DNA of 64,000 nucleotides from a virus, in IMG/VR virus record IMGVR_UViG_3300017917_002560, positions 1 through 64,000 of that record; one strand, given 5' to 3'. How positions within the stretch are numbered: position 1 is the first letter of the stretch; each line of letters starts with the position of its first letter. Under the pieces are notes generated by a model. The model ran no database searches. It was not told the DNA's origin and saw only the letters and a program-made list of their open reading frames with translations. The translations under genes were made by a program, and so were the position numbers. Below, in pieces: positions 25,361 through 29,161 of the stretch.

Positions 25361-26122
25361 TTAAGATGTAACGTTGTCTACGATACCCAAATTGATACCA
25401 GTTTGAGCTGTACCTGACTTGATCACAGTGCCTTCGTCTGTGAAGAAGTTGGCAACATAACGAACATCGTTTGTTACTTCGGCTTGTGTAAAGCCGTTAC
25501 CACCAGTAAAGTCAAGCAAGAACTTGTTGGTCAACTTGCTGAGTGGAGTAGCTGTACTGTCGCCAGTTGATTCAGTGAATGTAATAGCCATCAAGCCCGC
25601 CGCTGGAGTTACGTCATTGTCTAGTACACATACGCCAACTGAATTAGCAACACCGTCACCGGCACCGCCAACTGAAGTAGCTGTAAACACATCACCAACA
25701 CCAGCACTTGCGGGTGCGCCAGCCAATGTCCAGTTGGTTGTTGTGCCTAGAGTAGCAATTTGATATGCTTGACCAACCACAAAGCTGCCGTCGTTGACAC
25801 CAGTGGTATCGCCCACTAGATACTTACGTGACCCTTTCTGACGGATGATATATCCGGCAGCAACACCAATGCCTGTGCCGTCGGATGCGGCAATGTTAAC
25901 AATTACATCAATTCTTGGATTTGTTGCAGTAGGTGCGTCTGTAGGTGCCGCTCCACCAACTACACCTAGGTACTGAGTACCACTTAGTGTGTCAGCAGTG
26001 TTGACCACAGGGTTGGTCAAACTAGCAAAGTTTGGAAAACCTAAGTCAATACCTACGGCTGCGCCAGGTGAACCTTGGCCAGAATTAGCTGAATATTTTT
26101 GAATTTTGAGAGGACGTCCCAT
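25361..26122 (-). CDS. Virion structural protein (253 aa)
   Basis: A 253-aa Gly/Thr/Val-rich protein. MGRPLKIQKYSANSGQ at the start and an IIRQKGSRKYLVGDTTGVND segment at about residue 115 are shared by a family of abundant virion proteins in cyanophages and other aquatic T4-like phages, probably decoration or tail-surface proteins. The start at 26122 is chosen because a purine-rich AAAGGAGA site lies before it; the frame extends 27 nt further upstream. It has its own late promoter and a strong terminator just downstream, so it forms a monocistronic late unit, consistent with high expression. Exact location in the particle is unknown. Confidence 0.65.
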   Translation of the reverse strand: MGRPLKIQKYSANSGQGSPGAAVGIDLGFPNFASLTNPVVNTADTLSGTQYLGVVGGAAPTDAPTATNPRIDVIVNIAASDGTGIGVAAGYIIRQKGSRKYLVGDTTGVNDGSFVVGQAYQIATLGTTTNWTLAGAPASAGVGDVFTATSVGGAGDGVANSVGVCVLDNDVTPAAGLMAITFTESTGDSTATPLSKLTNKFLLDFTGGNGFTQAEVTNDVRYVANFFTDEGTVIKSGTAQTGINLGIVDNVTS

Positions 26123-26215
26123 TTTGTTTTCTCCTTTAAAGAAGCCCAATGCGGGTTCTAGCCGCTACGCGGTGGGTTTTAAGCTCCGCATAAAACGCAT
26201 TATTGCGTTGACTTG

Positions 26216-27430: not shown

Positions 27431-27504
27431 GCGCTAGGCCCGTATGGTACGGGAGAAGCCTCTAAAACTTCCGATAGTGGGTTCGATTCCCATCTAGCGC
27501 ACCA
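27431..27504 (+). tRNA. tRNA with anticodon CUA (amber suppressor type)
   Basis: A 74-nt cloverleaf with encoded CCA. The acceptor stem GCGCTAG/CTAGCGC is a perfect 7 bp, and the discriminator is A. The D arm is CCCG-TATGGTA-CGGG. The T arm is GTGGG-TTCGATT-CCCAT with the conserved TTCRA loop. The anticodon arm is GAAGC-CTCTAAA-ACTTC: with U33 at 27461 the anticodon is CTA at 27462-27464, reading UAG. Oddities: only one base (G) joins acceptor and D stems, so the usual U8 is missing, and the pair closing the anticodon loop is C-A. There is no long variable arm (5 nt), which excludes Leu, Ser or Tyr types. The amino acid cannot be read from the sequence. Confidence 0.8.
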
Positions 27505-27710: not shown

Positions 27711-28454
27711 ATGATGTATGAATCAAAAATGGTCGCCGCCATTAAAGTAAACGGCAAAGTCCTACGTGAATTCAAGGACACAGTGCATATTCCATTCTCT
27801 AGCGAATATAGCATTTTACTAAAAAACCTCAACACACAACGAGCAGTAGTCAATGTTTTCATTGATGGCGAAAACATAGTACCCAACGGCCTAGTGCTCA
27901 ATGCTGGACAAGAAATTGATCTTGAACGATCAATCAAAAACGGTAACTTAACCGAGGGCAATCGTTTTAAGTTTATTGAACGCACTGGCTCTGTAGAGGC
28001 ACATCGTGGTGTCAAGCTCGAAGATGGTATTGTACGAGTTGAGTTCCAGTTCGAACAACCACGTCCAATTTGGACCAACATCACATATAGCAACAATCAA
28101 ATTTATCCACAAGGTAGTATCCTGCGTGGTATGAACAACAGTGTTGGCCCAGTTGGTTCAGTGACTTGTTCTGCTACATACGACAGCTATTCTGCATCAG
28201 CTACATCAGCCGTTGCCAACGACGTTGGCATTACTGTGCCTGGTAGCAAAAGCACTCAGTCTTTTTCAACTACCTATGTTGGCGTCCTAGAATCAACTAA
28301 GCACACCATGGTGTTTAAACTATTGGGTGGTGAAGCTGTTAAGCAAGCTGTCACTGTCAAGCACAAACCCAAGTGTGTCACATGTGGCAAGCAAAATAAA
28401 GCAACGGCAAAATTTTGTACAGAATGTGGCACGGCTCTAGAAATTTTTGCTTGA
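27711..28454 (+). CDS. Phage protein with C-terminal zinc ribbon (247 aa)
   Basis: The first 110 residues (KMVAAIKVNGKVLREFKDTVHIPF, then VFIDGENIVPNGLVLNAGQEIDLERS) form a beta-rich domain that I believe recurs in many large phages but has no known role. A low-complexity Ser/Thr linker leads to a second beta domain and a C-terminal zinc ribbon with two pairs, CVTC and CTEC (residues about 223-241). It may be a virion or nucleic-acid-associated protein. The start at 27711 (or ATG 3 nt on) follows a strong AAAGGAG site. Its TGA stop lies inside the -35 box of the next promoter. Confidence 0.65.
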   Translation: MMYESKMVAAIKVNGKVLREFKDTVHIPFSSEYSILLKNLNTQRAVVNVFIDGENIVPNGLVLNAGQEIDLERSIKNGNLTEGNRFKFIERTGSVEAHRGVKLEDGIVRVEFQFEQPRPIWTNITYSNNQIYPQGSILRGMNNSVGPVGSVTCSATYDSYSASATSAVANDVGITVPGSKSTQSFSTTYVGVLESTKHTMVFKLLGGEAVKQAVTVKHKPKCVTCGKQNKATAKFCTECGTALEIFA

Positions 28455-28479
28455 CACAGTGCAATCAATCATATATAAT
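28451..28479 (+). promoter_or_regulatory. Consensus sigma70 promoter (TTGACA-17-TATAAT)
   Basis: TTGACA at 28451-28456 and TATAAT at 28474-28479 with a 17-nt spacer. It should give strong early transcription from about 28486 into the leader of the amber-containing gene. The -35 contains the TGA stop of the previous gene, the same arrangement as at 3755-3760 on the other strand. Confidence 0.9.
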
Positions 28480-28536
28480 GAGCACATGTTAGTAAATTAT
28501 ATCATACTAGTATAGGTCATTAAACACTTATTATCT

Positions 28537-28583
28537 GCCCGGACTACTCCTCGTCTGACCAGCTTGGATGTCGCGGGCTTTTT
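28537..28583 (+). terminator. Intrinsic terminator/attenuator in the leader
   Basis: GCCCGGAC (28537-28544) pairs with GTCGCGGGC (28570-28578), one bulged G, and is followed by TTTTT. It lies between the promoter and the gene, so it either ends a small RNA of about 100 nt or acts as an attenuator. The loop contains CTCCT, complementary to the AGGAG of the downstream ribosome-binding site. Confidence 0.65.
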
Positions 28584-28612
28584 CACGACCGTAACTTTTA
28601 AAGGAGATCAAA

Positions 28613-29161
28613 ATGTCGTAGATTGAATATGCTTGCAAGGACGTAGTGTTCCATTTTAACAAAAAACACTTAGAAGACGAGACCATTCCTATGTGGGTCT
28701 TAAAAACACATGGAGAAACTTTTTATGTTGATCATGTCGAAGCTGACATGTCATGGAGTACAAAAGAAACGCCCAATAACTCACACACCAAAGGCAGTAT
28801 CAAGTTCAAAGAAGTGTTGCTTCAAATTGACGAGCACAACTGCGCAAAGTTAAGCAAGCTATCTGTAATTGACAAAATTCGCTTGCGCAATCAAAAGCTA
28901 GGCATTACTCGAATCTTATTTGGGTGGAACAGCGACATCCATAAAGCATTAAAAAACAATGAGTTCAAGCACAGCCCTTTTAAAAATGTCGAGGGAGCAT
29001 GCGGCACTAGCTATGTTGTATGTGACTTGTTGAAAAAAGAAGAAGCAACGTTTGCTGGGTTGAAATATCATTTTCGTGTGCTGATGCCAAACGAAATGTA
29101 TTATCAGTTCTACGACAGCAAGGAAAAGTATATCGATGAGATATACGAAGACGACGACTAA
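28613..29161 (+). CDS. Early protein with in-frame UAG at codon 3 (182 codons)
   Basis: The ribosome-binding site AAAGGAG (28600-28606) stands 6 nt before ATG-TCG-TAG-ATT-GAA. After the TAG at 28619-28621 the frame stays open for 179 codons to TAA at 29161. The codons just after TAG read IEYACKDVVFHFNKKH, smoothly continuous with the rest, so the protein seems to begin before the TAG. The only in-frame start beyond it is a GTG at 28646 with AAGGA just 4 nt away, giving a 171-aa product that loses the first strand. The protein is acidic, ends in EIYEDDD, and has THGETFYVDHVEADMSWSTK and a conserved-looking GSIKFKEVLLQIDEHNC stretch; function unknown. The phage's CUA tRNA lies 1.1 kb upstream. 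Alternatives are a sequencing error, a GTG start with a two-codon leader, or a population variant. Confidence 0.7.

Follow-up and report, generated by a model that had tools for sequence, protein, structure and literature searches.

A putative suppressor-tRNA gate close to the start codon in two phage gene families

How can a gene be expressed when the third codon of its reading frame is a stop codon? The question is raised by a gene, here called X, in a 64,000 nt window of viral DNA (positions 1 to 64,000 of IMG/VR record IMGVR_UViG_3300017917_002560, which has 138,095 bases). X (28613-29161, plus strand) begins with ATG (28613-28615), TCG and an in-frame amber codon TAG (28619-28621), which is followed by an A (TAGA context). 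A Shine-Dalgarno (SD) sequence, AAAGGAG (28600-28606, plus strand), is separated from the ATG by 6 nt (ATCAAA). After the amber codon, 179 sense codons follow up to TAA (29159-29161), giving 182 residues with the amber codon counted. On re-reading of the sequence, this layout was found exactly as given in the preliminary description. An amber suppressor tRNA had been placed about 1.1 kb upstream, and tRNA(CUA) is confirmed there, 1,109 nt 5' of the ATG. We consider it very probable that X is a natural example of a gene gated by a suppressor tRNA, forming a coherent feed-forward gate. The device appears to extend beyond the gene first described: start regions that would be gated by a suppressor tRNA recur in diverse phages and in no fewer than two families of genes.

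The locus and its suppressor tRNA

X is preceded by a perfect sigma-70-type promoter (TTGACA-17-TATAAT, 28451-28479, plus strand, 12/12 match to the consensus), one of six such sites in the whole 138-kb record. For the 5' leader of about 120 nt (28480-28599, plus strand), the predicted fold is no better than that of shuffled sequences (z-score +0.42), and a structured leader or attenuator was therefore rejected. The gene between the tRNA and X (27711-28454, plus strand) codes for a protein with a C-terminal zinc ribbon (PF13240); it has a strong SD of its own and no in-frame stop. Farther upstream, a freshwater-2 cis-regulatory RNA motif (26120-26210, minus strand; 72.1 bits in Rfam against a gathering threshold of 49.9) precedes a minus-strand gene that starts at about 26120.

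The suppressor tRNA (27431-27504, plus strand, anticodon CTA) was detected by ARAGORN and matches Rfam RF00005 with 41.5 bits (E 1.4e-6); the GG of the D-loop is present. The ARAGORN label "tRNA-Pyl" reflects the anticodon only, because the record has no PylS C-terminal domain. As such a domain was found above cutoff in none of the nine phage records searched, that of the window phage included, a pyrrolysine system was rejected. The record contains 39 further tRNA genes. An ordinary, ungated gene for the peptidyl-tRNA hydrolase Pth2, of the canonical subfamily, lies inside the tRNA cluster and outside the window (G000 129601-129969, minus strand; locus L005).

Conservation of the amber codon in X homologues

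A first homologue search in IMG/VR, for which only the residues 3' of the TAG served as query, yielded 35 loci. In all of them (35/35), an ATG is followed by 1-8 codons, TAG and a conserved IEYACKDVVFHFNKK block. From a second, profile-based search, the best 80 of 340 relatives were kept; 76 of these could be read automatically, and each of the 76 has the TAG. The common form is ATG-(0-8 codons)-TAG-domain, with the ATG in frame 1-9 codons 5' of the TAG and, as in the window, a SD upstream. The short N-terminal tags vary in sequence and length (MS*, MQ*, MSM*, MTDLNPIAI*, MTQK*, MSKQ*, the asterisk denoting the stop), and the distance between the TAG and the domain shifts by whole codons, the frame being kept in every gated X. 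Across the readable homologues of both sets, the TAG is never swapped for CAA, CAG or any other codon, and neither TAA nor TGA serves as a gate in the X set. All 21 complete members of the family end in TAA or TGA, and none in TAG. The TAG recurs at the gate in more than 100 distinct sequences and in GenBank isolates, a count of genes with common ancestry and not of independent events. To judge from these alignments, the pattern is not due to chance.

In the codons that follow the TAG, pN/pS is 0.07 for the first four and 0.15 for the first eight, with an overall range of 0.07-0.20. Values this low directly 3' of the stop imply that these codons are translated. Two signs of readthrough or recoding are found here: the coding region beyond the in-frame stop is conserved and under selection at the level of the protein, and the stop codon itself is conserved. 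The earlier view of codon 3 as a sense position is strongly supported by the invariant TAG, the in-frame changes in spacing and the selection that sets in right after the stop. The preliminary description had also named a case that would speak against it, in which all homologues start at the position of the GTG at 28646. This is ruled out by the homologue comparison, and the GTG was rejected as the true start since most homologues have GTC or GTT in its place.

X of the window consists of a conserved beta-rich N-terminal domain (28622-28861, plus strand; FHFNKKHLxDxxIPMWVxK...TKETPDN..TKGS in the alignments) and a C-terminal domain. In other phages, the conserved domain occurs alone, fused, or adjoining Pth2. 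A single-domain version, which has escaped annotation, is found in the cultured Rhizobium phage RHph_I1_18 (MSEFM*NESCREVIFHFNK...) with a tRNA(CTA) 12 nt downstream. No homologue was found among 84,980 bacterial and archaeal species. Neither Pfam nor PHROGs gave a match to X, so that it was rejected as a Pth2. The structural model of two-domain X has no match in the PDB below E 0.14. The single-domain model, which AlphaFold predicts with a pLDDT of 94, has none below E 0.28; its one viral match (E 3e-4) is an uncharacterised phage protein labelled DUF2061. The beta-rich domain of X is uncharacterised; it is modelled with confidence, and its structural matches are uninformative.

A second gated family and the linkage to suppressor tRNAs

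In one clade, X lacks the TAG. Here, the gene directly upstream of X carries it, and this gene codes for Pth2 (PF01981), with a tRNA(CTA) directly before it. Pth2 proteins from gated genes match the Pfam PTH2 family with 33.0, 30.8, 60.6 and 59.2 bits (cutoff 23); they differ from other members in carrying a stop near the start codon. They were found in Bacteroidota-type phages, in Sinorhizobium phage Phosso (MKY*VEEK...), in huge phages (LR756500, LR756501, LR745206) and in mycobacteriophages of cluster C, where Pth2 starts with ATG-TAG-GTG (Cane17, Breeniome) or GTG-TAG-GTG (Myrna, Phabba, ScoobyDoobyDoo). In cluster C, a tRNA(CTA) lies about 130-310 nt downstream, and a -10 element is found 6-7 nt before the start, which suggests that the mRNA is leaderless. 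The annotated starts of the cluster C genes lie after the stop; in general, annotations either overlook gated phage Pth2 genes or give them a wrong start.

When X and Pth2 are neighbours, it is the first of the two genes that bears the amber codon, in 16 of 16 distinct cases (12 with the order Pth2-X, four with X-Pth2). This rule explains two apparent exceptions (L182 and L210), in which an ungated X lies 3' of a gated Pth2. At one of the 16 loci (L189), both genes are gated. In phages other than that of the window, the putative gate is located on Pth2 or on whichever of X and Pth2 comes first in the operon. The Pth2 frame of LR756501 (locus L229, a 735-kb phage) contains an additional TAG, with two tRNA(CTA) genes some 2 kb farther downstream; wider use of TAG as a sense codon is probable in this phage. 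At locus L322, an ORF of 200 codons on the minus strand, about 0.9 kb away from the gated Pth2, begins with MT*VLSNTIEELHEAMSS... and may represent a third gated family or a chance occurrence.

Of the gated genes found by homology, 103 are flanked by at least 2 kb on either side, and for 78 of these the fetched stretch contains a tRNA(CTA). It is always on the same strand, at a median distance of 347 nt. At about a quarter of the gated loci, the fetched stretch shows none. A cognate suppressor tRNA in the same phage, one element of our working definition of gated expression, is the rule, with four large records as exceptions: no tRNA(CTA) was detected in G007 (330 kb), G021 (150 kb), G024 (101 kb) and G034 (67 kb), which are whole or nearly so. 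Part of the genome may be missing from these records, or the decoder there may be a host tRNA. Overall, the linkage speaks more for the tRNA of the phage itself than for a host suppressor as the likely decoder. Across loci, the tRNA(CUA) sequences are very diverse, too much so for a simple call of amino-acid identity. The base after the TAG is a purine in all 148 distinct gated genes from all sets (130 A, 18 G), and a purine 3' of UAG is a favourable context for amber suppression.

Agrobacterium phage Atu_ph07 departs from TAG. Its Pth2 gate is TGA (ATG ATT GGC GAA CAC TTT TGA ATT AAT; MIGEHF[TGA]INYEE...), and its whole record contains a canonical 75-nt tRNA with the anticodon UCA and no tRNA(CTA), whereas Phosso, a close relative, combines a TAG gate with a tRNA(CTA). 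The authors of Atu_ph07 reported this opal suppressor tRNA and suggested UGA-terminated genes in general as its targets (PMC6102473). Although it is a single case, the covariation of stop and anticodon between the two phages is the clearest indication that the tRNA reads the gate. According to the preliminary description, translation of X depends on amber suppression, and the early stop blocks the product fully without it. Comparative evidence, to which the tRNA linkage and the covariation in Atu_ph07 also belong, argues strongly that this would be so.

We also scanned 118 IMG/VR loci for which the tRNA(CTA) pattern alone served as seed, looking for ORFs in which an SD and an ATG are followed by 0-9 codons, a stop and 60 or more open codons. 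We counted 31 such ORFs with TAG, against 19 with TAA and 17 with TGA as controls; 13 of the 31 are X, five are Pth2, and the remainder look random. When the same scan is evaluated by domain, gated Pth2 has TAG in 13 cases, TAA in two and TGA in none, and gated X has TAG in seven cases and no other stop. Seeding with the tRNA alone thus recovers the same two families.

Some phages with a tRNA(CTA) depart from this pattern. Locus L134 has an ungated X with a tRNA(CTA) 6.6 kb away in the record, and no convincing gated gene was found close to that tRNA. Both XacN1 and RAS14 combine a tRNA(CTA) with a Pth2 that is ungated and belongs to another subfamily, like the ordinary Pth2 of the window phage, and the SD-ATG-STOP scan revealed no gated gene near the tRNA. 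Stenotrophomonas phage Summit carries a mini-ORF (L440:49442-49468; AAGGAG...ATG AAG TAG GTC TAC AAG CCG CCG TAA, MK*VYKPP) about 400 nt 5' of its suppressor tRNA. It is found at the same place, with a silent change, in DLP3 (L442) and DLP5 (L443), and is possibly an amber-gated leader peptide. The authors of Summit had sought a target of the suppressor tRNA and found none (PMC9022506). At many loci (L007, L015, L018, L060, L065, L086 and others), permuted tmRNA genes (e.g. with the tag ANDTRFALAA) are no more than a few kb away from gated X, which suggests Betaproteobacteria-type hosts. As tmRNA genes occur at 22 of 133 gated loci and at 11 of 75 ungated tRNA(CTA) loci, tmRNA is not enriched and was rejected as a specific partner of the gate.

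Proposed mechanism, comparable systems and alternatives

Ribosomes would initiate at the strong site of X. As long as charged tRNA(CUA) is lacking, a peptide of 1-9 residues would be released at the UAG and neither X nor Pth2 would be made. Once the phage tRNA has been transcribed, matured and aminoacylated, UAG followed by a purine would be read as sense, and the X or Pth2 protein could probably be made only from then on. The logic would be that of a coherent feed-forward loop, in which expression is delayed and dampened and signals that a functional suppressor tRNA exists. Sequence comparison points directly to the conserved stop, to in-frame translation past it, to the tRNA linkage and to the covariation of stop and anticodon; the decoder in the cell would be the phage tRNA, and the purpose would be timing or sensing, with Pth2 perhaps feeding back on peptidyl- or aminoacyl-tRNA. 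Why these two genes should be the targets we can only infer.

Several known systems share parts of this arrangement. The RF2 gene prfB has a start-proximal in-frame UGA that is passed by +1 frameshifting and senses RF2. It resembles the phage gate in that the synthesis of a translation-related protein depends on decoding at an early stop, but in the phages there is no change of frame, and UAG (or UGA) is paired with a cognate suppressor tRNA. The lambda bar minigenes (AUG-AUA-stop) are biologically linked to peptidyl-tRNA hydrolase, and they share with the gate both this link and the mini-ORF of start, sense codon and stop, but no protein follows in frame. As in selenocysteine and pyrrolysine decoding, a dedicated tRNA would redefine one stop in specific genes. 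The phages differ in that no PylS was found, and the gate is not part of the conserved fold and has neighbours that vary, so that the stop itself and not a special residue seems to matter. A further counterpart is synthetic: in the "leak dampener" of Ho et al. 2020, an amber codon immediately after the start and a co-regulated suppressor tRNA form a type I coherent feed-forward loop which curbs leaky expression (PMC7969014). The logic is the same, but that circuit was engineered in E. coli, while the phage gate would be natural and widespread. In a search of the open-access literature, we came across no account of the arrangement.

The gate might instead serve negative feedback, Pth2 (or X) hydrolysing or sequestering charged or peptidyl suppressor tRNA, so that suppression is metered and UAG-terminated genes are spared in a manner reminiscent of prfB, which controls its own synthesis at its in-frame stop. 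A feedback on the tRNA or on suppression is plausible because Pth2 acts on peptidyl-tRNA and because peptidyl-tRNA drop-off, which is recycled by Pth, is described in PMC10192219 as frequent early in elongation. That peptidyl-tRNA hydrolases make up one of the gated families, that X shares an operon with it in several phages and that the gate adjoins the tRNA would fit as well. However, phages with X only are common (no Pth2 match was obtained in 17 of the 31 records searched), and the window phage has its separate, ordinary Pth2 without a gate; we regard negative feedback as possible but doubtful. The gate could also be a form of addiction or quality check, a useful product being made dependent on the integrity of the suppressor tRNA, for instance so that host nucleases attacking phage tRNAs are detected, with timing playing no part. 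In its favour, unrelated phages retain the tRNA next to the gate, and the tRNA sequences are highly divergent; against it, some gated records show no such tRNA, and we think this explanation unlikely.

Termination and reinitiation would require no suppression at all: ATG-x-TAG would be a minimal upstream ORF, and X or Pth2 would start at a weak codon (ATT, GTA, GTG) right after the stop. The codon 3' of the TAG in X is indeed usually ATT or another ATN, and the GTG after the TAG is the annotated start in the mycobacteriophages. Reinitiation, however, does not need a common frame of ATG, TAG and domain, which is always kept despite variable spacing; the codons directly 3' of the TAG do vary (AAC, TTA, GTA, ACA), while the peptide is conserved from the first of them. 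It would also leave the linkage to tRNA(CTA) unexplained, as well as the restriction of the stop to TAG, the sole departure being TGA with a UCA tRNA. We therefore consider reinitiation very improbable. Even less credible, to the point of being negligible, is genome-wide recoding of TAG to Gln (code 15), with X as one among many TAG-containing genes. Like crAss-like and other gut phages with this code, for which a role in timing has been proposed (PMC9523058, PMC11210395), the phages described here carry a suppressor tRNA that would make TAG sense, and one of them, the huge phage LR756501, has a second TAG in its Pth2 frame. In code 15 phages, however, TAG stands for Gln in many genes and interchanges with CAA/CAG, and neither is the case here. 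In the 138-kb record, TAG is a rare ordinary stop (it ends 4 of the 69 ORFs that reach 200 aa) and a search for further amber-interrupted genes gave none that was convincing, so that this phage does not read TAG as sense throughout. Not one of the 14 loci whose amber tRNA is Gln-like has a gated gene, as against 23 of 88 loci with other amber tRNAs. The case described here is that of a standard-code phage with a single invariant TAG, always just after the start of one gene or operon, and a tRNA that is not Gln-like.

We return to gating by a suppressor tRNA as the preferred reading. Phage suppressor tRNAs have repeatedly been reported without a known target, and the gate of X and Pth2 would be the first concrete, specific and conserved one. 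The gated genes form a class that is lost or mis-started by automated gene calling. The circuit would be a natural version of one that synthetic biologists have built independently, and the question can be tested directly in cultured phages, including the cluster C mycobacteriophages that are grown on M. smegmatis mc2 155. The chances seem to us evenly balanced that phages of Betaproteobacteria-type, Bacteroidota-type, Rhizobiales and Mycobacterium hosts use a suppressor tRNA and a start-proximal stop as a switch for a translation-maintenance module (Pth2 and its partner X), the circuit being closed because the enzyme under the control of suppressor activity itself acts on tRNA. If this is true, it would be the natural counterpart of the synthetic feed-forward gate and would explain in general terms the purpose of many phage suppressor tRNAs.
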